Below, in pieces: positions 3,342 through 16,455 of a stretch of 32,937 nt of DNA (position 1 is its first letter; every line of letters starts with the position of its first letter). The notes beneath the pieces were generated by a model, which was given only the letters and a program-made list of their open reading frames with translations, was not told where the DNA came from and searched no databases. Source of the stretch: a bacterium (GTDB lineage: Bacteria > Elusimicrobiota > Elusimicrobia > UBA1565 > UBA9628). Position numbers and translations under genes: made by a program. Location of the stretch: the NCBI GenBank assembly GCA_021782205.1, contig JAJXVH010000020.1, positions 1-32,937 on the forward strand. The letters run 5' to 3'.

Positions 3342-4393
3342 AGCTTCTCCTGTTGGGCTGGAGCCATCGCGCTTCGGCGGCGGCCTCGCGCGAGGCGCTG
3401 GCGGCGGTGCCCGTGGAGCGCGTGCTGGCGGAGCTCAAGAGCCGCGGCGTGGCCGAGGCCGTCGTGCTGTCCACCTGCAACCGGTTCGAGCTGTATGCGG
3501 CCTCGACTCCCGACGCGCCGCCGGCGCGCGAGTCTCTCTTGAACGCGTTGAGCGAACTGGCGGGCGCCGACGTCCGCGCGGACGCCGAGGCGCGCGAGGA
3601 CGCCGCCGCGGTCGCGCATCTTTTCGGCGTCTCGTCGGGCATGGACTCGCTTGTGGTGGGCGAGACCGAGATCCTGGGCCAGCTTAAGACGTCCTATGAA
3701 GCCGCGAAAGCGGCGGGCATGACCGGCAAGCGCCTCAACGTCCTGTTCCAGCGCGCGCTCTATGTCGGCAAGCGCGTGCGCTCGGAAACCGGCATCGCCT
3801 CGGGCGCCTCGTCGGTGCCTTCGGTGGCGGTGCAGTTGGCGGAGAGCATCTTCGGCCGCTTGGAGGGCAAGTCCGCGCTGATCCTGGGCGCGGGCGCCAT
3901 GGCGGAGCTGGCCGTCAAGCACCTGGTCGCCCGGGGGACCGCCCGCATCACGGTGGCCAACCGCACCTGGGAGCGCGCCTACGCGCTGGCCGCGCGCTTT
4001 CACGGCGAGGCCGTGCGCTGGGATGCGGCCGCGGAGGCGTTGGTCGACGCGGACGTGGTCATCGCCTCCACCGGCGCGCCGAGCGCGGTGGTCACGCGCG
4101 CGATGGTCGCCGCCGCCCTGCGCCGCCGCGGCGGACGCTCCTTGTTTTTCATCGACATCGCCATGCCGCGCGACGTCGAGGAGTCGGTTCACGAGCTCGA
4201 CGGCGTCTACCTCTATCGCCTGGAAGATCTGGAGTCGATCGTGGCCAAGAATATGTCCGAGCGCGCCGGGGCCATCGCCGCCGCGCGCGCCATCGTCCAG
4301 GCCAAGGCCGCGGAGTTCGACGCCTGGGCGCGTTCTTTGTCCAGCGGCCGCGAGCTGAGCCTGCGCCACGCGCCGCGCTCCATCCAGTCTTAG
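3338..4393 (+). CDS. hemA: Glutamyl-tRNA reductase
   Basis: About 351 residues. HemA reduces glutamyl-tRNA(Glu) to glutamate-1-semialdehyde with NADPH, the first committed step of the C5 tetrapyrrole pathway, in the cytoplasm. The STCNRFELY motif with catalytic Cys47 is intact, as are the VVGETEILGQ segment (108-116) and a Rossmann GAGAMAE motif (about 184-190). The GTG start at 3338 overlaps the stop of the CcsA/HemX-like gene by four bases, so the two are probably translationally coupled. The protein is shorter than typical bacterial HemA (about 420 residues): it ends soon after the helix that follows the NADPH domain, so most of the C-terminal dimerisation domain appears to be missing. It ends tail to tail with the minus-strand QueC-like gene, sharing four bases. 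No other haem-synthesis genes are in the window. Identity is very secure. Confidence 0.95.
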   Translation: MKLLLLGWSHRASAAASREALAAVPVERVLAELKSRGVAEAVVLSTCNRFELYAASTPDAPPARESLLNALSELAGADVRADAEAREDAAAVAHLFGVSSGMDSLVVGETEILGQLKTSYEAAKAAGMTGKRLNVLFQRALYVGKRVRSETGIASGASSVPSVAVQLAESIFGRLEGKSALILGAGAMAELAVKHLVARGTARITVANRTWERAYALAARFHGEAVRWDAAAEALVDADVVIASTGAPSAVVTRAMVAAALRRRGGRSLFFIDIAMPRDVEESVHELDGVYLYRLEDLESIVAKNMSERAGAIAAARAIVQAKAAEFDAWARSLSSGRELSLRHAPRSIQS

Positions 4394-5052
4394 GAAACGA
4401 CCAGCGCGCGCTCGGCGCACTTGTTGCAGTTCCCGCACGCGCGGCGTCCGCGCGGATTGAGGCAGGAGAACGTCAGTTCCAGCGGCAGGCCGGGCGTCCG
4501 GGCCATGACGCGGGACTTGCTCAAGCGCAGGTAGGGCGCGAAGACCTCCACGCGCCGTCCCACGGCCAGGCTGATCGCGCGCGACATCGCGGCGAACGCG
4601 GCGGGCCGCGCGTCGGGAAAGGGGTTGCCGCGGAGCACCGCGGTCGCGATCGCCGGCAGGCCCTTGAGACCGCAAAGAACGCCGGCCTGCGACAGCAGGA
4701 TCAGGTTGCGGCCGGGAAGATAGACGCTGTCGGCGGCGCTGCGCGCGTCGGGCACGGCCGGCCCGGACAGGCTCCAATGCCCGGCGAGCGCGCCGTCCAT
4801 CGGTGCGGCCATCACCGTCAGCGGCCTCAGGCCGGGCCGGGCCAGGCGGCCCAGAAGGCGCTTCAGCCAGAACAGCTCCGCGCGCTCCCAGCGGAAGCCG
4901 CAGCGTACGTAGAGAGGATGCACTTCAAAGCCGCGGTTCAGGAGTTCCCAGGCCAGCGCGGAACTGTCCACGCCCGCCCCGGCCAGCAGGCAGACTCCGC
5001 GCATGCGACCGGACGCCATGCGGCGGAAGGCCGATTCGGGCGAGAATCTCAC
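4390..5052 (-). CDS. QueC-like PP-loop ATPase (7-cyano-7-deazaguanine synthase family), variant PP-loop
   Basis: About 220 residues. Three QueC hallmarks are visible: an N-terminal PP-loop region (residues 23-31), a YLPGRN segment (111-116) matching the family PGRN motif, and a C-terminal zinc site, Cys197, Cys206, Cys209 and Cys212, with the QueC spacing (C-x8-C-x2-C-x2-C). The PP-loop, normally SGGxDS, reads GAGVDS, with Ser to Gly and Gly to Ala changes. QueC converts 7-carboxy-7-deazaguanine to preQ0 with ATP and ammonia; QueC-like relatives also occur in Qat and type IV CBASS antiphage loci. The GTG start at 5052 is chosen because it overlaps the SET gene stop (GTGA); the frame upstream is a shadow of that gene. 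No queD, queE, queF or tgt lies nearby. Real gene and family are secure, but canonical preQ0 synthesis is uncertain. Confidence 0.8.
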   Translation of the reverse strand: MRFSPESAFRRMASGRMRGVCLLAGAGVDSSALAWELLNRGFEVHPLYVRCGFRWERAELFWLKRLLGRLARPGLRPLTVMAAPMDGALAGHWSLSGPAVPDARSAADSVYLPGRNLILLSQAGVLCGLKGLPAIATAVLRGNPFPDARPAAFAAMSRAISLAVGRRVEVFAPYLRLSKSRVMARTPGLPLELTFSCLNPRGRRACGNCNKCAERALVVS

Positions 5053-5654
5053 GGCGCTAAGTCCTTCGGCGGTAATGGAAAGATGTAGCCTGGCCCATAG
5101 TCCAGGAGGAACTGCTCGCCGCGCGCGATCGGGCGCGAGGCGACGAAGAGGACGCGCGGCAGACCCTCGTGGACGACCAGCGCGCGTGCGACGTTGGCGC
5201 GGCGCGCGGAGTGGTTGACGAAGCGCAGTTCGTTGCCTTGGGCCTCGGCGTCGACGGCATACGCGGACTCGAACGGATATTTCAGCAGGTAGGGGTTGAA
5301 ACGGCCCTGGCCGAGAGGCCGCCAAGCCCGGGTGAGAAGGCCCGCGTATTCCCCGACGGGCCGGCCCGGCGCCAGCGCGCGCGCGGCAAAGAGGCCGAAG
5401 CCGACCGGCTCCTGCGCGCGCGCAATCCAGCCGGAAACCGCGGCGGCGTCGCGCAGGAAGCGCTGGAAGAGCTGTATGGCCAGCGGGCCCCAGGTCCGCG
5501 ACGAATCGGCCGCGGCCGGGGCGGCCGCGGCGAGCAGGGATTCGGGCGCGGCTTCGTCACAGGACAACGACGGCTGATACGTCGCGCCGAACCGGCGCTT
5601 GAATTCGGCGTTGCCCAGGGTGGTCAGCGAGTCCTGCTCGAAGATTTGCGCCAT
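5049..5654 (-). CDS. SET-domain protein (putative protein lysine methyltransferase)
   Basis: About 201 residues. SET hallmarks appear in order: GFGLFAAR (85-92, the GxG SAM-binding strand), GEYAG (101-105), RFVNHS (144-149, the pseudoknot NHS motif) and ARGEQFLLDYG (178-187, with the catalytic-type Tyr). The first 80 residues are Ala-rich and match nothing I recognise, and no post-SET Cys cluster is present. SET proteins transfer methyl groups from SAM to lysine; bacterial examples act on host or self proteins. It is first in a two-gene minus-strand operon, and its TGA overlaps the GTG of the QueC-like gene, so the two are probably produced together. A TATAAT box lies 20 bases upstream of ATG 5654. 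The gene is divergent from the cytochrome operon. The target protein is unknown. Confidence 0.82.
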   Translation of the reverse strand: MAQIFEQDSLTTLGNAEFKRRFGATYQPSLSCDEAAPESLLAAAAPAAADSSRTWGPLAIQLFQRFLRDAAAVSGWIARAQEPVGFGLFAARALAPGRPVGEYAGLLTRAWRPLGQGRFNPYLLKYPFESAYAVDAEAQGNELRFVNHSARRANVARALVVHEGLPRVLFVASRPIARGEQFLLDYGPGYIFPLPPKDLAP

Positions 5655-5740: not shown

Positions 5741-6262
5741 ATGAAGAAGATTCAGAGTGCGGCGGTCCTGACGGCGTTGCTGGCGGGCGTTCTGCTGGGC
5801 GCCGCGCCGCGCGTCGCGGCGCAGATTTATCCCAACGACGCGGGCCCGACCAAGATCGACGTCTCCACTTATCCCAAGGAGATGCAGAAGACTTACGAGG
5901 AGTTCACCAAGAAGTGCTCGAACTGCCACACCATCGCCCGGCCGATCAACGCCCAGTTCGTGGAGATGTCCGCGGAGGAGGAGGCCAAGGCGCGCAAGGA
6001 GCAGCCGGACCTCTTTACCGACACGCGGATCATCGACGTCAACGAGCACGCCTGGAACCGCCTGGTCAAGCGCATGATGGCCAAGCCCGGCTGCCCGGTC
6101 AACAAGATGAGCGGCAAGCGCATCTGGGAGTTCCTGGTCTACGACTCGAAGGTGCGCAAGACCGGCGCCAACGCCGCCGCGTGGAAGGCCGCGCGGCTCA
6201 AGCTGGTGGAGGACTTCCAGAAAAAACACCCCGCCGACTACGCGCGCATCTTCCCGAAGTGA
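5741..6262 (+). CDS. Monohaem c-type cytochrome, ACIII-associated, copy 1
   Basis: 173 residues. A Sec signal peptide (MKK start, hydrophobic core, AAPRVAAQ cleavage region near residue 27) implies periplasmic location. One CSNCH haem-binding motif is at residues 59-63, and a candidate distal Met lies in RMMAKP (112-113). ATG 5741 is supported by GGAGG at 5732-5736. The mature protein begins with a IYPNDAGPTKIDVSTYP segment that closely parallels the second cytochrome at 6611 (TYPADTGPATIDVSKYP), so the two are paralogues, probably from a tandem duplication. This copy has about 25 extra residues between haem and distal ligand and a longer Lys-rich C-terminus. Its position just before an act operon suggests an electron carrier for ACIII, but the partner is inferred only from neighbourhood. 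Confidence 0.88.
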   Translation: MKKIQSAAVLTALLAGVLLGAAPRVAAQIYPNDAGPTKIDVSTYPKEMQKTYEEFTKKCSNCHTIARPINAQFVEMSAEEEAKARKEQPDLFTDTRIIDVNEHAWNRLVKRMMAKPGCPVNKMSGKRIWEFLVYDSKVRKTGANAAAWKAARLKLVEDFQKKHPADYARIFPK

Positions 6263-6270
6263 CCGGCCGG

Positions 6271-6306
6271 CGCGCGCCGGACGACTCTTGGAGCGTCCGG
6301 CGCGCG
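6271..6306. other. 13-bp perfect GC-rich hairpin between cytochrome genes
   Basis: Arms at 6271-6283 and 6294-6306 are exact inverse complements around a 10-base loop (6284-6293), eight bases after the first cytochrome stop. The tail (TCTTATGG) lacks a real U-run, so it may be a leaky terminator, a Rho-associated or mRNA-stabilising stem, or an uncoupler between the first cytochrome and the downstream act genes. Confidence 0.6.
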
Positions 6307-6355
6307 TCTTATGGACGTTGCTCGAAATCGCGCGCAAGCCTTCTCGTCGAGCTTT

Positions 6356-6385
6356 TTGACAAGACGCGCGCCAAGGTATTACGAT
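6356..6385 (+). promoter_or_regulatory. Sigma70-type promoter for the Tat peptide-cytochrome-act operon
   Basis: Perfect TTGACA (6356-6361), 18-base spacer, TACGAT (6380-6385). Predicted start of transcription is about 6392. The -10 box overlaps the first ATG of the downstream frame (6384), so translation must begin at the later ATG 6420, which has TGAGG at 6407-6411. Confidence 0.6.
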
Positions 6386-6419
6386 GACGCAGGAAAATAC
6401 GTTGCGTGAGGCCACTAGC

Positions 6420-6614
6420 ATGAACGAATCGAAAGAATCCGCGGCGAAGACCCGAAGGCAGTTCCTCGGGGGGGCGCTGGTCGGATTGGCGGGAGGCCTG
6501 ATGGCGTTTCCGCGGCTGGGCCGCTGGACCCGCGCTTCGGAGCCGCGCGCCCGGCCTCGCGGCCCCATCGACACCGTTTTCGAGCCGATCTCCGCTGACG
6601 CGGTGAGAAAGTGA
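6420..6614 (+). CDS. Small Tat-signal protein of the act operon, function unknown
   Basis: 64 residues. It is almost only a twin-arginine signal: TRRQFLGGALVGLAGGL (residues 11-27), then a short basic, Pro/Arg-rich tail ending PIDTVFEPISADAVRK. No Cys or CXXCH is present. The head resembles the N-terminal anchor of Rieske-type subunits, but no Rieske domain follows. ATG 6420 is preferred over ATG 6384 because the -10 box overlaps the latter and TGAGG lies 8 bases before the former. The stop overlaps the GTG of the next cytochrome (GTGA), so the gene is translationally tied to the operon. It could be a small membrane-anchored ACIII accessory subunit or a remnant of a lost Tat substrate. Confidence 0.6.
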   Translation: MNESKESAAKTRRQFLGGALVGLAGGLMAFPRLGRWTRASEPRARPRGPIDTVFEPISADAVRK

Positions 6615-7060
6615 GGCGGCGCGCGGTCGTGAAGGGCGCCCTTGCGGTTTTCTTCGTCGCCGCGGTCTTCGCCGGCTCCGCGGCGCGTGCGGCCGACCCG
6701 ACCTATCCCGCCGACACCGGTCCGGCGACCATCGACGTGTCGAAGTATCCCAAGGTGCAGCAGGACGCCTACAAGGTGTTCCTGGACAAGTGCTCGACCT
6801 GCCACACGGTGGCGCGCGCGATCAATTCGGATTACGCGACTCCCGAGGAATGGAAAGCGCTCGTCGATAAGATGCACCACAAGCGCTACTCGGGCATCGA
6901 CGGCGACGCCCAGAAGACGATCACGGACTTCCTCATCTATGACTCGTCGATCCGCAAGAAGGACCTTCTCGCCGCCAAATTGAAGGCCGCGAAGGCCGCG
7001 GCGGTGTCGACCTCCTCGATGACGACGCCGGCTGCGCCCGCAGCTCCGGCCAAGAATTGA
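6611..7060 (+). CDS. Monohaem c-type cytochrome, ACIII-associated, copy 2
   Basis: 149 residues. The N-terminal signal peptide is MRRR followed by a hydrophobic core, with cleavage near AARAAD (about 28). A single CSTCH motif sits at 61-65, and Met88 in VDKMHH is a candidate distal ligand. The C-terminus is a flexible Ala/Pro/Thr tail (from about 122). It is paralogous to the cytochrome at 5741 but more compact. The GTG at 6611 overlaps the stop of the Tat peptide gene, and actA follows after 10 bases, so it belongs to the act transcript. It is probably a periplasmic shuttle or peripheral ACIII subunit; whether it reduces an oxidase cannot be told here. Confidence 0.88.
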   Translation: MRRRAVVKGALAVFFVAAVFAGSAARAADPTYPADTGPATIDVSKYPKVQQDAYKVFLDKCSTCHTVARAINSDYATPEEWKALVDKMHHKRYSGIDGDAQKTITDFLIYDSSIRKKDLLAAKLKAAKAAAVSTSSMTTPAAPAAPAKN

Positions 7061-7070
7061 AAATCGGAGA

Positions 7071-8165
7071 ATGAATAGGATGAACGAGCGGCCGTCGCGA
7101 TCGAGTTTCGGGGCGTCCGCGCGCGCGGCCGCCGCGTTCGTTCTTCTGCTGGCGGCGGGGTCCGCGCGCGCGGACGACGCGGCCGGCTCCTTTCATGACA
7201 GCGCCCTGCTGTTCATTCAGCGCTGCGCGCAATGCCACACCCTCGGCGGCGGTCGCGGGGTGGGCCCCGACTTGACGGGCGTGACGTCCCGCCGCGCCAA
7301 GGATTGGCTGATCGGTTTCATTCAAAATCCGGATTCCTACTTGGACAAGGACGCGGACGCCCAGAAGCTCTTGGCGGAGTACGGCGGCGTGCGCATGGAA
7401 AACGTCCATGTGACCAAGGCCCAGGCCGAGGGACTGGTCGCTTTCATTCAGTCCGCGTCGCAGACGCCTTCGCCGGAACTGCGCTATCCCGACGAGGGCT
7501 GGCACGGCTTCTCCGTGCCGGGCCTGCTGATTTTCGCGGTCCTCGCGGCCGGGACCTTGGTCGTCATGATCTTCGGCGCGCGGCGCGACGCGGCGGTGCT
7601 GGCGGTGTTCTGCGCCGCGGCCGCCTACTGGGGCTTCGGCGGTTGGCGCTATTTCCGCCTGCCCGGCGACCAGCAGGGCCATATCCCGCCCCAGCCCATC
7701 GCGTTCTCGCACGAGCTTCACGCCGGGCGTCTGACCATCTCCTGCCTGTATTGCCACGGCGGCGCCCAGCGCAGCGACGTCGCGGGCGTGCCGCCGCTGA
7801 GCGTGTGCATGAACTGCCACGTGGCGGTGCGCTCCGTGTCCGGGGCCAAGGAGCCGTCGCCGGAGATCGCCAAGATCGTCGCGGCCTACGACGCCAGCGT
7901 CAGTTCTCCGACCGCGCCGGGCTTCGCCTGGAACCGGGTCCATCACCTGCCCGACTACGTCCACTTCAGCCACCGCGCGCACATCGCCAACAACCTGCAG
8001 TGCCAGGAGTGCCACGGGCCCGTGCAGACGATGACGCGCCTGCGGCAGGCCGCGCCCCTGACCATGGGCTGGTGCGTCAACTGCCATCGACTCACGCCGA
8101 AGGACGCGCCCAGCCACTGGAAGCGCGTCGGTGGACCGCTGGATTGCGCGGCCTGCCATTTCTGA
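7071..8165 (+). CDS. actA: Alternative Complex III subunit A, hexahaem, with fused N-terminal monohaem cytochrome c domain
   Basis: 364 residues. A signal/anchor segment (about 18-34) is followed by a class I cytochrome c domain with CAQCH (52-56) and candidate distal Met109, then a hydrophobic region (about 149-189) long enough for one or two membrane spans, then the ActA multihaem part: CLYCH 225-229, CMNCH 246-250, CQECH 311-315, CVNCH 335-339 and CAACH 359-363. Extra His residues (FSHELHAG, FSHRAHIA) are typical bis-His ligands of the cytochrome c7-like fold. ActA is normally pentahaem with one anchor and forms the electron exit side of ACIII. Here a monohaem domain is fused in front. GGAG precedes ATG 7071; ATG 7080 is an alternative start. 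ActB follows after 15 bases. Confidence 0.9.
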   Translation: MNRMNERPSRSSFGASARAAAAFVLLLAAGSARADDAAGSFHDSALLFIQRCAQCHTLGGGRGVGPDLTGVTSRRAKDWLIGFIQNPDSYLDKDADAQKLLAEYGGVRMENVHVTKAQAEGLVAFIQSASQTPSPELRYPDEGWHGFSVPGLLIFAVLAAGTLVVMIFGARRDAAVLAVFCAAAAYWGFGGWRYFRLPGDQQGHIPPQPIAFSHELHAGRLTISCLYCHGGAQRSDVAGVPPLSVCMNCHVAVRSVSGAKEPSPEIAKIVAAYDASVSSPTAPGFAWNRVHHLPDYVHFSHRAHIANNLQCQECHGPVQTMTRLRQAAPLTMGWCVNCHRLTPKDAPSHWKRVGGPLDCAACHF

Positions 8166-8180
8166 ATATTTGAGGAATCC

Positions 8181-11084
8181 ATGACCGAAGACGAGCGCCG
8201 CGCCTACGAAGAGCAGGACCGCCATGACGGCGTGCAGCGCCGTGACTTCCTAAAAATTCTCGGCGGCAGTTTCGCCGCGATGGCCTCCGGCTGCGATCTG
8301 CGCGCCCCGCGCGAGAAGATCGTGCCGTACGCCCGCCAGGCTGAAGGCCAGACGCCGGGCCTGGCGCGCTGGTATGCGTCCACCTGCGCCGGCTGCGCGG
8401 CGTCGTGCGGCGTGCTGGTCAAGAGCCGCGACGGCCGGCCGATCAAGATGGAAGGCAACCCCGACCACCCTCTCTCGCGCGGCGGCCTCTGCGCGCGCGG
8501 ACAAGCGACGGTTCTCGATCTTTACGATTCGGAGCGTCTGAAGTCGCCTCTCTCCGGCGGTGCGGCGGCGTCGTGGGCGGCTCTGGACGCCGGCGTGGAG
8601 AAGGCGCTGGCCGACGCGAAGCGCCATGGACGCAAGGTCCGCGTCCTCTCGCAGACCGTGCCCAGCCCGGCCCTGGACGCCGCGGCCGCGGAGTTCTGCG
8701 CCAAGCACGGCGCGCAGCGCGTGATCTATGACGAACCGTCTTTTGCCGCCATTTTGGAAGCGCACCGTCTGACCCACGGTCGGGCCGTCCTGCCGCATTA
8801 TCGCTTCGAGGACGCGCGCGCGATCGCCTCTTTCGACGCGGATTTCTTGGGAGCGTGGCTATCGCCCGTGGAGTTCACCAAGTCTTGGTCCGCCCGGCGC
8901 AAGCCCGACGCCAAGATGTCCTGGCATGCCCAGTTCGAATCGCGCCTGTCGATCACCGGCTCCAACGCCGATCTACGCGCCTCCCTCAAGCCGTCGGACA
9001 CGCTGGCCACCGTCGTGGAACTGTCCCGCTTGGTCGCCGAGCGTCTGCATCGCGCCGCCCCGGCGCACGGCGCCGGCAAGACGCCGGTCGCGCACGACGT
9101 CCTGCTGCGGACCGCGCAGGCCCTGACCGACGCGCACGGCGAGGCCCTGGTCGTCAGCGGCTCCTCCGACGCGGCCGTTCAGCGCGCGGTCAACGGCCTC
9201 AACGAGATGCTCGGCGCCTACGGCCGCACCGTGGACGTCGCCCATCCGTCTTACCAGCGCCGCGGCGAGACGGGCGCGATGGACCGCTTGATCGCGGAGA
9301 TGGAGCGCGGCGAAGTCGGCGCGCTGATCGTCTTCGAGGCCAACCCGTGCTACGACCACTCCCGGGCGGAGGCGTTTTCCGCCGCGCTGGCGAAGGTCGG
9401 CACGCTCGTGTCCTTGACGCAGCGCCGCGACGAGACCGCGATGCGCGCGGCCTTCGTGGCGGCGGCGCCGCACGCCTTGGAAAGCTGGGGCGACGCCCAG
9501 CCCGCGGCCGGCGTGCACAGCCTGGTCCAGCCGATCATCGAGCCGCTCTACGATTCTCGTCCGATCATCGAAAGCCTGTTGGCCTGGTCGGGCCGGACGG
9601 TCAAGGCTCACGACTACGTGCGCGAGGCGTGGCTCAAGACCGTCTATCCCCGTCATAAGGGCGGCGGTTCCTTCGACGCGTTCTGGGACCAGGCCTTGGA
9701 GCGCGGCGCGGTGGCTGTCGACGCCCCGGCCGAGGCGCACGGCCCCCTGCGCGCCGAGGCGCTGTCCGGACTCAGGTCCGCGCGCGCGGCGGCGGCGGCG
9801 GGAGAGTTCGAGCTCGACGCCTACGCCAGCGTGGCGATGTTCGACGGGCGCCAGGCCAACAATCCATGGCTGCAGGAACTGCCGGACCCGGTGACGAAGG
9901 TCACCTGGGGCAACGTGGCTTTGTTCTCTCCGGCCGACGCCAAGCGTCTGGGCGTGGAAGACGGCCGCATGGTGCGCCTGAGCGCCGCCGACCGTTCCAT
10001 CGATTTGCCGGCGTGCGTCCAGCCCGGCCAGGCCGACGGCGTGGTGGCCGCGGCGCTGGGCTACGGCCGCACCTCCGCGGGCCCGATCGCGGCGAACCTG
10101 CCCACGCGCAAGCTTCTGCCCATCGAAGTGGACCCGCCGGGCGGCGCGAACATCTTCCCGCTGGCGTCCGGCTCGGCGCTGTCGGTGGCGGTGCTGGAGC
10201 AGACGTCGACGCTGGCCCGAACCCAGACCTTCGACTCCTTGACGGAGCCGTTCAGCGGCCGCGAGCGCCCGATTATTCAAGAGGCGAGCCTTGAGGAATA
10301 CCGCAAGCTTGCGCCGGCCGAGGGCGTGCCGGAAAACGAGGCGGGGATGTGGCCCAAGCACGACTATAAGGGCCACAAGTGGGGGATGGCCATCAATCTG
10401 ACCTCCTGCACGGGCTGCGCCGGTTGCGTGGTCGCCTGCACGGCGGAAAACAACGTGCCGGTCGTGGGCAAGGCCGAGGTGCGCAAGAGCCGCGAGATGC
10501 ATTGGCTGCGCCTGGACCGCTACTACGGCGGCGACGAGCCCGAGACGAATCCGACCGTGGCGTTCCAGCCGATGCTCTGCCAGCATTGCGACGACGCGCC
10601 CTGCGAGACCGTGTGCCCCGTGGCCGCGACCACGCATTCGACGGAAGGCCTGAACATGCAGGTCTACAACCGCTGCGTGGGCACGCGCTACTGCGCCAAC
10701 AACTGCCCCTATAAGGTCCGCCGCTTCAACTGGTTCGACTACGCGCACGACGATCTGACGCAGAACATGGTCCTGAATCCGGACGTCACCGTGCGCACGC
10801 GCGGCGTCATGGAGAAGTGCTCCTTCTGCGTCCAGCGCATCAACGCCGCCAAGTTCTCGGCGGCCGAGGACGGCCGCGCGGTGGTCGACGGCGACGTCAC
10901 GCCCGCCTGCGCGCAGAGCTGCCCGGCGGACGCGATCGTGTTCGGCGACATGAACGACCCGAAAAGCCGGGTCTCCCGGACGGCGCGCGAGAACCACAGC
11001 TTCCGCGTGCTTGAGGAGTTGGGCGTGGGCCCCTCGGTGTTCTATGGGATCAAGGTGCGCAACGCGCAGGTGAGGAAGTCATGA
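8181..11084 (+). CDS. actB: Alternative Complex III subunit B, molybdopterin-oxidoreductase-like plus iron-sulfur domain
   Basis: 967 residues. A Tat motif RRDFLK (20-25) precedes a lipobox-like ASGC (Cys38), implying export and possible lipid anchoring. The first part (about 60-680) resembles complex iron-sulfur molybdoenzymes, with Cys69, Cys72, Cys76 and Cys104 in the usual N-terminal cluster positions; in characterised ACIII this region holds no molybdenum. The C-terminal ferredoxin domain has four Cys groups: 743/746/749/753, 800/803/808/812, 832/838/842, and 880/883 with 910/914, matching the three [4Fe-4S] and one [3Fe-4S] pattern known for ActB. It passes electrons from the quinol-oxidising membrane subunits towards the haems. 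GAGGA lies before ATG 8181. Its stop overlaps the actC start (ATGA). Confidence 0.94.
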
Positions 11085-12460
11085 GCGAACACGTCGTCTC
11101 GACGCTGCGCCGGCCGCTGATCGACGGGGGCAAGGACTACGCCCGCGTCTCCGAGGACGTGTGCTCTCCAATCGAGCGCGGTCCGACGTCCGCCTGGTAT
11201 TATTCGATCGCCGCTTCCTCCACGGTCCTGGCGATCGGAGCCTTTCTTGTCTTCGACCAGATCTGGACCGGTATCGGGACTTGGGGTCTCAATAAGACCG
11301 TGGGCTGGGCGTTCGACATCACGAACTTCGTGTTCTGGGTCGGCATCGGCCATGCGGGAACGCTGATCTCGGCGATCCTGTTCCTGTTTCGCCAGCGCTG
11401 GCGCACGTCGGTCAATCGTTCGGCCGAGGCCATGACTTTGTTCGCGGTCATGTGCGCGGGCGTGTTCCCGCTGATTCATATGGGCCGGCCTTGGCTGGCG
11501 TACTGGGTGTTCCCGTATCCGAACACGATGGGTCCGTTGTGGGTGAACTTCCGTTCACCCCTGCTCTGGGATGTGTTCGCGATCAGCACCTACTTCACCG
11601 TCTCGGCGATGTTCTGGTACATGGGACTGCTGCCCGACCTGGCTCTGGTCGCCGAGCGGGCCAAGGGCTGGCGTCGGATGATCTACCGGACGGCGAGCTT
11701 GGGCTGGGATGGCTCCATGCGCACCTGGACGCACTACGAGGCTTTGTATCTTCTGCTCGCGGGTCTGGCCACGCCGCTGGTGCTCTCGGTGCACACCATC
11801 GTCAGCTTCGACTTCGCGACCTCGGTCCTGCCCGGTTGGCACACGACGATCTTCCCGCCTTACTTCGTCGACGGCGCCATCTTCTCGGGCTTCGCGATGG
11901 TCATGACCTTGATGATCATCGCGCGCAAGGTGATGAATTTCGAGGAATACATCACGCTGCGCCACATCGACGCGATGTGCAAGATCACCTTGGCCACGGG
12001 GATGATCCTGACGCTCGGCTACTGCACGGAGCTGTTCTTCGCCTGGTACGGCAGCAACCCCTACGAGCGCTTCACCTTCCTCAACCGCCTCTTCGGGCCC
12101 TACCGGTGGTTCTATTACACGATGTTCATCTGCAACGCCTTCATCCCGCAGGCGCTGTGGTCCAAGCGCGTGCGCGCCACGCCGTGGATCGTCTTCATCA
12201 TCTCGATCTGCATCAACATCGGGATGTGGCTGGAGCGCTTCAACATCATCGTGATCTCCCTGCACCGGGACTTCCTGCCGTCGAGCTGGACGATGTATCA
12301 CCCGACGTATATCGAGATCGGCACGCTGCTGGGCAGCTTCGGGCTGTTCTTCACGGCGTTCCTGCTGTTCTGCCGCGTTCTGCCGATGATCGCGATCAGC
12401 GAGGTCAAAGGGGTGCTCCACTACGCCCGGCGGCCCGAGGAGGGCGCTCATGGCCACTGA
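11081..12460 (+). CDS. actC: Alternative Complex III subunit C, NrfD/PsrC-like quinol-binding membrane protein
   Basis: 459 residues with about ten predicted membrane spans. The segment [12 protein letters not shown] (about residues 127-138) is the conserved periplasmic-side motif of ActC near the quinol pocket, and the HGR/HAGT-type residues and Trp/Tyr-rich loops fit the NrfD/PsrC family. ActC contacts the ActB iron-sulfur domain and oxidises menaquinol or ubiquinol; a proton-translocation role has been proposed for ACIII but cannot be judged here. ATG 11081 overlaps the actB stop by four bases, and the 3' end overlaps the actD start by 11 bases, so it is in the middle of a fully coupled operon. 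Length is normal for the family. Confidence 0.93.
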
Positions 12461-12968
12461 ACTGGTCGTCGGAATTTTCCGCTCCGAGCACGACATCGTC
12501 GCCGCCGCCAAGAAGGCGCGCGCGGCCGGCTTCACGATCCAGGACGCCTACACGCCGTTCGCCGTGCACGGCCTGGACACGGCCATGGGCCTGCCGCCGT
12601 CGTTCCTGCCGCTGGCCTGCCTGGGCTTCGGCGCGGCGGGCTTGGCCACCGCGCTGAGCTTCGAGTATTGGGCCACGCGCATCGATTGGCCGATGATCAT
12701 CGGCGGCAAGTCCTACTCCGCGATTCCGGCGCTGATCCCGATCGGCTTCGAACTGACGGTTCTGTTCGCGTCCGTCGGCTCCGTGCTCACCTTCCTGCTC
12801 ACGCGCGGTCTGATCCCGAACCCCGAAAAGGTACCGGCCTTGTCGAGCCTGGGCGGCCTCAACGACCGCTTCGTGCTGGCGTTGAAGCGAAGCGGCGACG
12901 CCGCCGCGCTGCGCCGCCTGCTCAGCGACGCCGGAGCCGTTGAAGTCAAAGAGGAGTCCCTGCCATGA
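12450..12968 (+). CDS. actD: Alternative Complex III subunit D (DUF3341)
   Basis: 172 residues. The start ([20 protein letters not shown]) is the typical DUF3341 ferredoxin-like fold with the conserved [10 protein letters not shown] segment (about 34-43). Two hydrophobic stretches (about 54-72 and 94-114), separated by a [12 protein letters not shown] loop, form the membrane hairpin seen in ActD. ActD packs beside ActC and ActF in the complex and carries no cofactor. It overlaps actC by 11 bases and actE by four (ATGA), so translation is coupled. Family assignment is secure. Confidence 0.92.
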
Positions 12969-15301
12969 GCCGCCGCAGTCTGCTTCCCGCCGCGATTTTG
13001 GCCGTCCTGGTCGCCGGTGTTATCTTGGCCACGCGCCAGGACCTGACTCGGGTCAATCCCCGCATTTTCACGGATTTGTATCGCACGCCGGCGGTTCACA
13101 GCCAGGAGCCCAGCACTCTTTTTTCGGATGGCCGGGCGATGCGTCCGGCGCCGGAAGGGACGGTCGCGCGCGGACAACAGCCGCTCCTCTACGGCCCCGG
13201 TCCGCAGGAGTTGGCCCGGGCCGGACGCGAGTTGAAGAATCCGTTTCCACCCAGCGAAGAAAATCTGGCCCGCGGCCATAAAGTCTTCGAGATGTATTGT
13301 CAGCACTGCCACGGCTTCACCGGCCTTGGCGATGGCGCCGTCGCGCAGGCCTACCATCGCTTCTCCTTCCCGGTCGCCTCCCCGGTGGTCGCGGCCATGC
13401 CCGACGGCGCGCTGTTCCACATCATCACCTTTGGCCAGAACCTGATGCCGGCGCACGGCCCGCTGGTGAGCGTCGACGACCGCTGGAAAGTCATCGGCTA
13501 TCTGCGCACGCTGCAGCGCCAGGAGATCGCGCGCCTGGCCGACGACCCTCGCCGCAACTCGGCCCCGACGGCGGACTACGGCCGCGAGTTGTTCGCGCAG
13601 AACTGCGCGTCCTGCCACGGAGATAAAGGTCTTCAGCCCAGCCCCGGCGTGCCGACCTTGCACCTGCCGGCGGTGCTGTCGATTGCCGGCGACGAATACT
13701 ACACCGCGATCATCGCCAACGGCCGCCCTAGCGCCGGCATGCCGGCCTGGAAGACCGCGCTCACCCCCGCGCAGCGCCAGAGCGTTCTGCTCTACATCCG
13801 CACTTGGGCTTGGCCCACGCCGCACATCGAGCCTTATGCCGTCGCCAAGGCCGACCCGGCGCGCGGCAAGGCCTTGTTCCTGAGCCACTGCATCGGCTGT
13901 CACGGTCCCGAGGGCGCGGGCGGCATCGGCAACATGCTGAACGCGCCTTCGTTCCAATCGTTGGCCTCCGACGATTTCCTGCGCCGCACGATCTCCCTGG
14001 GACGCCATCGCACCGCCATGCCGGCGCCCTACGACCTGACCGAGGGCGACGTCAACGCTCTGATCGCCTACATCCGCTCCTGGCACGCTCCGGCGCCGGC
14101 CTACGATGCGGTGGCGGCGCTTTCGACCAAAGCCTCGTCTTCAAACGGCGCGAAGCTGTTTTCCGCCAAGTGCGCGGCCTGCCACGGAGCGAAGGGGGAG
14201 GGGTTGATCGGCTCCGCCTTGTCGGCCCCCTCGTTTCTGGCGATGGCGGACGATCACTTCCTGTACAACGTGATCACGCAGGGCCGTCCCGGCACCGCGA
14301 TGCCGGCGTGGCGTCAACTCAGCGCGCAAGAGATCGCCGACGTGATTTCCTTCATCGGCACGTGGCGCACCAGCCCCGCCGTGGCCCTGTCGTCGGCCCA
14401 GCGCCGCGGCAGCGCCGATCACGGCGCCGCGCTTTACCAGAACAACTGCCGCAAGTGCCATGCCGACCTGGGCGCGGGAGACATGGGCACCCAGATCGGC
14501 AACCCGGCCCTGCTGACCCAAGAGTCCGACGATTTCTTGTGGCATACCATCGCCGAAGGCAAGACGGGCACGGAGATGAAAGGATTCTTGAAGCGCGCCC
14601 GCGATCCTCTGACGTCCAAGGACATCGACGACCTGGTTGCCTACCTGCGCCGCCTGCAGTCCCACCCGCCGGCCGAAGGCCTCAAGCGGGCCTACTCCTG
14701 GGCGTCCGCTGACGACGGCAAGAAGGTCTACGTGGCCAATTGCGCGCGCTGTCACGGCGAGCAGGGCCAAGGGGGCATTGGACCGGGCATCGGCAACACG
14801 GCGTTCCTGCAAGTCGCCAGCAACGGCTTTCTTGAAGGGACCGTGATCCTGGGCCGCGAGGGCTCGATGATGCCCTCGTTCCACGACGGCCTGGAAAATG
14901 GCTCCTCGGTTCCGGCGTTGTCCTCGGACGACATCGACAACGTCGTGGCTTACGTGCGCAGCTTCGAGAAGCATGCGCCGACGGCCTACCGCGAGGTGGA
15001 CCGCTCCTCGGACAACGCGTCGGACGGAAAAGTGCTGTTCGTCGCGAACTGCGCGCGCTGTCACGGCGCCGACGGCCGGGGCAATCACGGAGAGAAGCCC
15101 GGCATTTACGCCCCGTCGCTGCGCGACCCCGAGTTCTTGAAAGCGGTCGACGATAATTTCCTCGAGGCGACGATCGCCCTGGGCCGCCCCGGCACGGTGA
15201 TGCCGGCATTCGGTGACGGCATGAACGGCAAGGCGGGTCTTGCCGCCTCGGACATCCAATCGATCATCGCCTACCTGCGATCTTGGGAGAAGCAAAAATG
15301 A
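12965..15301 (+). CDS. actE: Alternative Complex III subunit E expanded to seven tandem cytochrome c domains
   Basis: 778 residues against roughly 200 for ordinary monohaem ActE. Residues 1-22 are a signal/anchor; residues 30-185 match ActE, including RIFTDLYRTPA and the first haem CQHCH (112-116) with distal Met161. Six more domains follow: CASCH 214-218 (Met259), CIGCH 309-313 (Met352), CAACH 403-407 (Met446), CRKCH 495-499 (Met538), CARCH 593-597 (Met636) and CARCH 696-700 (Met746). Each has a distal Met, usually in MPAW/MPAF/MPSF; domain 5 has MKGF instead. Domains 3-7 resemble each other most (DDFL, GRPGT and YLRSW repeats), so they probably arose by serial duplication. Start and stop overlap actD and actF (ATGA), so this is one gene inside the operon. 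A haem chain of this length could act as a wire or electron store beyond ACIII. Confidence 0.93.
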   Translation: MSRRSLLPAAILAVLVAGVILATRQDLTRVNPRIFTDLYRTPAVHSQEPSTLFSDGRAMRPAPEGTVARGQQPLLYGPGPQELARAGRELKNPFPPSEENLARGHKVFEMYCQHCHGFTGLGDGAVAQAYHRFSFPVASPVVAAMPDGALFHIITFGQNLMPAHGPLVSVDDRWKVIGYLRTLQRQEIARLADDPRRNSAPTADYGRELFAQNCASCHGDKGLQPSPGVPTLHLPAVLSIAGDEYYTAIIANGRPSAGMPAWKTALTPAQRQSVLLYIRTWAWPTPHIEPYAVAKADPARGKALFLSHCIGCHGPEGAGGIGNMLNAPSFQSLASDDFLRRTISLGRHRTAMPAPYDLTEGDVNALIAYIRSWHAPAPAYDAVAALSTKASSSNGAKLFSAKCAACHGAKGEGLIGSALSAPSFLAMADDHFLYNVITQGRPGTAMPAWRQLSAQEIADVISFIGTWRTSPAVALSSAQRRGSADHGAALYQNNCRKCHADLGAGDMGTQIGNPALLTQESDDFLWHTIAEGKTGTEMKGFLKRARDPLTSKDIDDLVAYLRRLQSHPPAEGLKRAYSWASADDGKKVYVANCARCHGEQGQGGIGPGIGNTAFLQVASNGFLEGTVILGREGSMMPSFHDGLENGSSVPALSSDDIDNVVAYVRSFEKHAPTAYREVDRSSDNASDGKVLFVANCARCHGADGRGNHGEKPGIYAPSLRDPEFLKAVDDNFLEATIALGRPGTVMPAFGDGMNGKAGLAASDIQSIIAYLRSWEKQK

Positions 15302-16455
15302 AGGGAAACCGGCGTCTGCTGTCCCCGTCCGAGTCCTCCGTTGCGCTCGCGGCTTTGATCGGAGGAGCCGCGTTGTTCGTCGTCGGCGCGAAGTTCTCCG
15401 TCGCGCGCGCGGGCGCGGGGCTTCTGCTGGCGAACTTCTACTTCTCCTCGCTGGCGTTGACCGCGCTATTTTTTATCGCGATCCAGAACGTTTCCTCCGC
15501 GGGCTGGCCGGCGTTGTTCCGGCGCGTGCCGGAGGCGATGACGTCCTACCTGCCGCTCGGCGCGGCGCTGACGCTGTTGACGGCGCTGCTGGCGCGCGAT
15601 ATTTACCCGTGGGCCGTTGCCGGCGTCGCGCAGACGCTGGGGGCGGGCAAGGCCGTGTATTTCAGCGTGGGCTGGTTTGCCGCGCGCGCGGCCGTCTGCT
15701 GGGCGGTGTGGCTGGCGTACTCGCGCGTGCTGGTGGGCTCCTCTCGCGCTCAGGACGGAGCGCACGGCGAGGCCCCGCGCCTGCCCGTCGCGGCGTCGGC
15801 GACGTTCCTGCTTGCCTTCGGACTGACGTTCAGCTTGGCGGCCGTGGACTGGCTGATGTCCTTGGAGCCGCGCTGGACCAGCACGCTTTATCCGTGGTTC
15901 ATCTTCGCGGGGGCTTTCGAGGGCGGCCTGGCGGCGGTTACCGCGCTGGTCATCGTCCTGCGCCGTCGCGGCTTCTTTTCCGAGCTCAACGAGAATCACC
16001 TCCACGACCTGGGCAAATACCTGTTCGCTTTCAGCTGTTTCTGGATGTATCTGTGGTTCTGCCAATACCTGCTGATCTGGTATACGAACATCCCCGATGA
16101 GGCCGTCCACTACATGATGCGCTCGTCGCCGGCGTGGTCGTGCCTGTTCTGGTCGAACCCGGTCATCAACTTCATCGTTCCTTTCGGACTGCTTCTGCCC
16201 GCCAGCCGCAAGAAGAAGGAGGGCGTCGTGCTTTTCGCAGCGCTGCTTCTGCTCGCGGGTCACGCGCTCGACCTCTTCATGCTGATCGAGCCGTCCCAGG
16301 GTCCCGGACCGCGCCTGGGCCTGGCGGAAGCCGCGGCCTTCATCGCCGTCGGCGCGGCGTTCCTCCTGCTCCTGGACCGTTCGTTCGCCTCGGCCGCGCC
16401 CGAGCCCGAGCGCGACCCGTTCATCGAGGAAAGCCGAACCTTCGCGGGCGTCTAA
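15298..16455 (+). CDS. actF: Alternative Complex III subunit F, second NrfD-like membrane protein
   Basis: 385 residues with about ten predicted spans. Segments diagnostic for ActF include SLAAVDWLMSLEPRW (about residues 183-197), a central FxSELNENHLHDLGKYLF-type loop (about 228-245) and WYTNIPDE (about 261-268). ActF is paralogous to ActC but is not thought to bind quinol at an equivalent productive site. ATG 15298 overlaps the actE stop; an in-frame ATG at 15283 inside actE is less likely. It is the last act gene here: no actG, actH, cytochrome oxidase or SCO-like gene follows, and no clear terminator is seen after the stop. The C-terminal tail is acidic. Confidence 0.92.
   Translation: MKGNRRLLSPSESSVALAALIGGAALFVVGAKFSVARAGAGLLLANFYFSSLALTALFFIAIQNVSSAGWPALFRRVPEAMTSYLPLGAALTLLTALLARDIYPWAVAGVAQTLGAGKAVYFSVGWFAARAAVCWAVWLAYSRVLVGSSRAQDGAHGEAPRLPVAASATFLLAFGLTFSLAAVDWLMSLEPRWTSTLYPWFIFAGAFEGGLAAVTALVIVLRRRGFFSELNENHLHDLGKYLFAFSCFWMYLWFCQYLLIWYTNIPDEAVHYMMRSSPAWSCLFWSNPVINFIVPFGLLLPASRKKKEGVVLFAALLLLAGHALDLFMLIEPSQGPGPRLGLAEAAAFIAVGAAFLLLLDRSFASAAPEPERDPFIEESRTFAGV

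Follow-up and report, generated by a model that had tools for sequence, protein, structure and literature searches.

Proteins resembling the queuosine enzyme QueC have recently been found modifying proteins in phage defence, and a locus in which a QueC-like gene overlaps a gene for a SET-domain protein raises the question of which reaction such a protein serves and what the SET pairing says about it. The window, the whole stretch of 32,937 nucleotides analyzed here, belongs to an Elusimicrobiota assembly (G000) of 3.09 Mb with 95.6% completeness. The features of the pair are collected in Table 1.

Table 1. Features of the SET/QueC-like pair in the window.
Feature	Positions	Strand	Basis
SET-domain protein, 201 aa, lineage-specific type-1 SET family	5049-5654	-	PF00856 1.5e-15; family alignment
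QueC-like PP-loop protein, 220 aa from GTG	4390-5052	-	PF06508 1e-21; alignments, tree, dN/dS
GTGA stop-start overlap of the SET and QueC-like genes	5049-5052	-	identical junction in G016 and G023
Altered PP-loop GAGVDS (family consensus SGGxDS)	4963-4980	-	alignment
GFRWERAE, family motif GxxWExxE in place of canonical YGQxHxxE	4876-4899	-	alignment
LPGRN (canonical VPxRN), Arg and Asn kept; PGRN at 4716-4705	4705-4719	-	alignment
NPFPDA substrate loop (canonical SGYPDC)	4609-4626	-	alignment
Zinc site C(x)8CxxCxxC, intact	4417-4464	-	alignment

In profile searches, the SET protein scored 57.9 bits against a PF00856 cut-off of 22.4 and the QueC-like protein 77.9 bits against a PF06508 cut-off of 22; an alternative ATG at 5004 would shorten the latter to 204 aa. 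The pair is isolated, and SET is the only operon partner of the QueC-like gene. Among the flanking genes, which were named by eye, hemA converges on the QueC-like gene, the two sharing 4 nt at 4390-4393, and a cytochrome c/alternative-complex-III-like operon (5741-16455) is divergent from the SET gene. The GTGA overlap probably couples the translation of the two genes, as judged from the junction. The dN/dS values between G000 and G016 were 0.104 for the QueC-like gene, 0.232 for SET and 0.114 for HemA, and with the first two values both genes of the pair look functional. Recurrence of the pair in G016 and G023, together with purifying selection on it, makes the arrangement more than chance. 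PADLOC gave no match beyond the generic QueC model. The preliminary description had reported an isolated, GTGA-overlapping operon, a kept zinc Cys quartet and PGRN motif, GAGVDS in the place of SGGxDS, and no other queuosine gene nearby; the open reading frames and motifs bore this out, with TGT and PTPS located on other contigs and QueE not detected in the assembly.

Sequence comparisons support the view of the QueC-like protein as a paralogue of QueC no longer engaged in queuosine synthesis. It scored 59.6 bits against the QueC equivalog TIGR00364, far below the cut-off of 150.3. The fold, C(x)8CxxCxxC, PGRN and the Asp of YPDC are common to canonical QueC and the QueC-like family, whereas the family has GxxWExxE for YGQxHxxE, NPFxDxxP for SGYPDC and SCL for SCY. 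The window protein accordingly carries the canonical zinc site and RN, and in place of SGGxDS, YxQxHxxE, YPDC and the zinc-region Tyr it has GAGVDS, GFRWERAE, FPDA and SCL. The family signature (GxxWExxE, YLPGRN, NPFxDxxP and SC(L/I)) is uniform from Elusimicrobiota to Planctomycetota, and the window protein shows it and falls in the corresponding clade. This clade stands apart from canonical QueC in the tree with support of 100/100, and the EFI-style alignment score of the divergent and canonical pairs compared never exceeded about 21, the published network having been cut at a threshold of 30. Mutagenesis of E. coli QueC found Tyr35, Arg99, Tyr131 and Tyr189 essential for preQ0 synthesis, with Tyr131Phe partly active (PMC13329287). 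At these sites the family has Gly for Tyr35, Phe for Tyr131 and Leu/Ile for Tyr189, and keeps the Arg; the zinc site, RN and the Asp of YPDC are retained across the family, the Asp being invariant in the alignments.

Canonical QueC was present in 48 of the 56 genomes of the order (about 159-241 bits; one split) and a second, divergent QueC in 31 (59-110 bits), with both copies in 26; outside Elusimicrobiota, 32 of 50 genomes carried the canonical enzyme alongside the divergent copy. Canonical QueC is operonic with QueE in G016, G017 and G025. A canonical QueC-QueE pair usually accompanies the divergent copy, and does so in both sister genomes (G016 and G023) sharing the SET-QueC arrangement. 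On the signature and on the coexistence of canonical QueC in close relatives, queuosine QueC was rejected as the identity of the window gene. The described PF06508 clusters comprise QatC, Cap9, LarE, PfkB-linked, WbpG, GMPS and three archaeal groups (PMC13329287), and by their descriptions the QueC-like family does not obviously fall within any of these. In the literature library searched, there was no published description of this family and nothing relevant on QueC with pterin or with SET.

Within the assembly G000, the window protein is the sole PF06508 protein above the cut-off, so a second, canonical queC, which the preliminary description had advised looking for, was not recovered, and the 12.3-kb queC-queE locus of G016, unrelated flanks included, has no counterpart there. 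As the flanking genes of G016 are missing too, both an assembly gap and a loss of the block are possible. Contig C170 of this genome carries PTPS, FolB and a pteridine reductase together.

The AlphaFold model of the QueC-like protein was confident (pLDDT 94.9) and closest to Cap9, then to QueC. Cap9, a protein-deazaguanylating QueC relative from type IV CBASS (PDB 9NTO), was also the best PDB match overall (1.9e-20 by profile and 8.4e-12 by fold), only slightly ahead of QueC by profile. The NPFPDA loop has Phe for Tyr, keeps the Asp and lacks the two-residue insertion, and this shortened substrate loop is shared by Cap9 and the QueC-like family. Unlike the family, Cap9 keeps the F/YxQ motif and the Tyr and Cys of YxDC and pairs with a CD-NTase; neither F/YxQ(x)5E nor YxDC was found in the window protein, and no CD-NTase or Cap10-type partner adjoins its gene between hemA and the cytochrome operon, as named by eye. 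Since Cap9 does not nest within the QueC-like family, the likeness may reflect a shared shorter loop and not a shared function. QatC has the QueC scaffold in common with the window protein, but is about 400 aa long, no longer has YPDC or VPxRN, carries a variant of the zinc site and pairs with QatA/B/D (PMC13329287); the window protein has 220 aa, and no QatA, QatB or QatD neighbour was found at the window locus.

The altered PP-loop does not set the family apart. In the alignment, GAGxDS occurred only in G000, G016 and G023, while most relatives in the paralogue family, G013 included, retain SGGxDS. The altered loop is thus a trait of only some members, not a hallmark of the family. The ATP chemistry of the window copy is uncertain because the first PP-loop Ser is missing. 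Other drifted loops were seen in Elusimicrobiota, namely SGADS with a deletion in G022 and AGGGSDS in G048 (L031:1555-2232, L033:6892-7539). Type-1 SET is present in four of the five altered-loop genomes; three of these four are one clade, and the SET gene of G022 is unlinked.

The SET protein has a SET domain with the GxG (about 5402-5394), NHS (about 5216-5208) and LLDYG (Tyr at about 5099-5097) motifs kept, which makes it a putative SET methyltransferase. It has GxG, NHS and DY in common with the PF00856 lysine methyltransferases (nearest PDB structure, the KMT2A SET domain), and differs from them in being short, restricted to a family of few Elusimicrobiota and devoid of post-SET cysteines. 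Of the 56 genomes of the order, 8 encode a type-1 SET protein; in a phylum-wide sample of 295 genomes, 9 gave a match, which was strong in 7. In G000, G016 and G023 the SET gene adjoins the QueC-like gene, each time through the GTGA junction; in G013, of another genus, the two genes lie in one co-directional block with a histidine-kinase-like gene between them. The adjacency is hence not unique to this genome, which the preliminary description had left to be searched. The pairing was confined to 4 of the 31 genomes of the order with a QueC-like gene, the QueC-like copies of these four form one clade (99/93), and G022, G044 and G047 carry the two genes without linkage. Screening 84,980 species genomes by pattern gave 375 relatives, and the best 80 loci were fetched; they were chosen as best matching the window's own family and were not sampled at random. 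Among these best 80 of 375, no SET gene lay beside a QueC-like gene outside Elusimicrobiota, and SET-QueC was rejected as a general module, since SET was found at only 3 of the 80 loci (L043, L044 and L053). All three are Elusimicrobiota records, identical to those of G016, G013 and G023. The SET pairing is a local feature shared by a small number of related bacteria.

The relatives come from Elusimicrobiota, Acidobacteriota, Nitrospirota, Omnitrophota, Planctomycetota, Chloroflexota, Armatimonadota, Actinomycetota and others (phylum names as in the record titles), and the family signature was found in about eight phyla. A PTPS/QueD-like gene lies within about 3 kb of the QueC-like gene in 26 of the best 80 of 375 loci, and in 13 of the 80 it is co-directional within 300 bp, as raw counts without phylogenetic correction and with gene calls outside the window from a simple script; assuming one or two PTPS genes per 4 Mb, a rough chance expectation for such proximity is well under one locus. 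A pteridine-reductase-like SDR with TGxxxRxG is adjacent in at least 10 of the 80 loci, its top NCBIfam equivalog being pteridine reductase with 224-250 bits, below the cut-off of 288, and FolB is nearby in 7. PTPS was detected in all 50 tested genomes outside Elusimicrobiota, and 13 Planctomycetota genomes have two PTPS genes, mirroring two QueC copies; because PTPS is nearly universal in these genomes, its presence is uninformative and only its adjacency counts. In Elusimicrobiota the QueC-like gene is mostly not beside PTPS. Eight genomes (G064, G065, G067, G074 and G080-G083) have the QueC-like gene and PTPS without detected canonical QueC, QueE or TGT. In a different set of eight genomes, where the QueC-like copy is the only one, QueE is kept, along with TGT in six. 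Most of the genomes are MAGs, which makes every absence call soft.

In QueC and Cap9, ATP serves to activate a 7-carboxy group, which is then converted to an amide. The Watson-Crick edge of guanine is also found in pterins. The Cap9 Asp that matches the YPDC Asp reads this edge on 7-deazaguanine (PMC13279940). Since the Asp is invariant in the QueC-like family and the edge is shared by pterins, we propose that members of the family would use ATP to activate a carboxylate carried by a guanine-like (2-amino-4-oxo) ring and would turn it into an amide or nitrile; a product of the 6-carboxy-tetrahydropterin type, made by the PTPS/QueD-like enzyme that adjoins the family in other phyla, is the most likely substrate. 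In a few Elusimicrobiota, this genome among them, the gene would have joined that of a SET-domain protein methyltransferase in a translationally coupled pair, and the ATP loop of the copy in this pair would have drifted to GAGxDS with the rest of the protein constrained. A modified pterin is preferred to queuosine because the family adjoins pterin-making genes in several phyla, and a pterin substrate is favoured because CDG is not expected in the eight genomes without canonical QueC, QueE and TGT. The overall reading, that the family makes a modified pterin and not preQ0 and that the window copy was captured into the SET pair, is a tentative one to which we give somewhat less than an even chance; the pterin substrate, the amide product and the retained chemistry of the window copy are what we infer. 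Its narrower form, a pterin carboxamide or nitrile made from 6-carboxy-tetrahydropterin together with PTPS and pteridine reductase in about eight phyla and SET-coupled in some Elusimicrobiota, is conceivable yet rather doubtful. No description of such a branch of pterin metabolism was found in the literature. If correct, it would point to a pterin-derived compound not described before, or to carboxy-tetrahydropterin being put to a new use. The lineage is not mentioned in the current PF06508 map (PMC13329287), and automatic QueC calls may be wrong in Planctomycetota, Acidobacteriota, Omnitrophota, Nitrospirota and Elusimicrobiota, with queuosine-pathway predictions inflated.

Linkage to PTPS alone cannot choose between a pterin and a 7-deazaguanine, because canonical queC also often adjoins queD (PMC13329287). 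An alternative 7-deazaguanine enzyme, a second QueC or a substitute for QueC that converts CDG to ADG or preQ0, would have the QueC fold and zinc site and the adjoining QueD-like PTPS, and in Nitrospirota and some others, where QueE and usually TGT accompany a QueC-like copy only, the latter could fill the QueC step. Such an enzyme is nonetheless unlikely, given that the equivalents of Tyr35 and Tyr189 are missing, that canonical QueC coexists in most genomes and that eight genomes have the QueC-like gene without detected QueE or TGT. Loss of ATP-dependent catalysis in the SET-coupled copies, leaving a binding or scaffold partner of the SET enzyme, would agree with the removal of the first PP-loop Ser by GAGxDS, with the drift of other loops (AGGGSDS, SGADS) and with the inactivity of a QatC double Ser mutant (PMC13279940). 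The dN/dS of 0.10 over the whole protein and the retained Asp, second Ser, RN and zinc site make this improbable.

The substrate might also be a protein or peptide, with a base or pterin carboxylate joined to a protein amine and SET methylating the same or a related protein. Cap9 as the best PDB match by profile and fold, the shortened loop common to both and the conserved GTGA coupling to SET agree with this, as does an operon of another Elusimicrobiota clade with a gene for an aKG-HExxH peptide beta-hydroxylase domain (TIGR04267, 99.5 bits in L013, the one tested representative of the cluster). The QueC-like gene lies directly downstream of that gene cluster in eight genomes (G017, G018, G021, G024, G026, G027, G028 and G030), and this operonic association leaves a protein or peptide substrate some probability; taken together, the HExxH operon and the SET pair are suggestive of protein modification. 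No recurrent protein partner was recognised, however, and the partners differ between clades; type-1 SET is confined to few genomes, most QueC-like genes lack both kinds of partner (SET and HExxH), and Cap9 does not nest in the family. Protein modification thus has a small chance of being correct, and the same low chance is left to the protein-marking system that had been proposed for SET-QueC, the pairing being limited to one clade and the partners across phyla being pterin genes. That SET and QueC-like proteins are merely neighbours with unrelated roles would fit their separate occurrence in G022, G044 and G047, but is very unlikely in view of a stop-start overlap conserved in three species and of both genes in one block of a fourth genome from another genus (G013).

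Several further arrangements were observed. At L013:4057-6694, with equivalents in L009-L012, L017, L025 and L029, the QueC-like gene, the aKG-HExxH-type gene and an uncharacterised gene of 227 aa are co-directional and overlapping. The single PTPS of Elusimicrobiota is regularly beside a pteridine-reductase-like SDR (L126-L132, L133); it is of a CYGHRL type outside the genus g1 and of another type in g1 (G000, G016), with FolB beside. The divergent PTPS was rejected as a specific partner, as it tracks no QueC-like presence and replaces the ordinary PTPS in Elusimicrobiota outside g1. A KS/FabD/PPTase-like cluster is repeatedly convergent downstream of the Elusimicrobiota QueC-like gene (L060, L062, L051, L058 and L066); it looks positional and was rejected as a partner. 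In Actinomycetota (L095:982-4028, L110:5618-8629), the QueC-like gene and PTPS are accompanied by two co-directional genes, encoding a heptosyltransferase-like protein of 302-303 aa and an uncharacterised protein of 356-358 aa. In G038 (L018:7446-10141), two co-directional genes precede the QueC-like gene, one for a CmlS-like flavin halogenase/monooxygenase homologue and one for a GlcD-like FAD oxidase.
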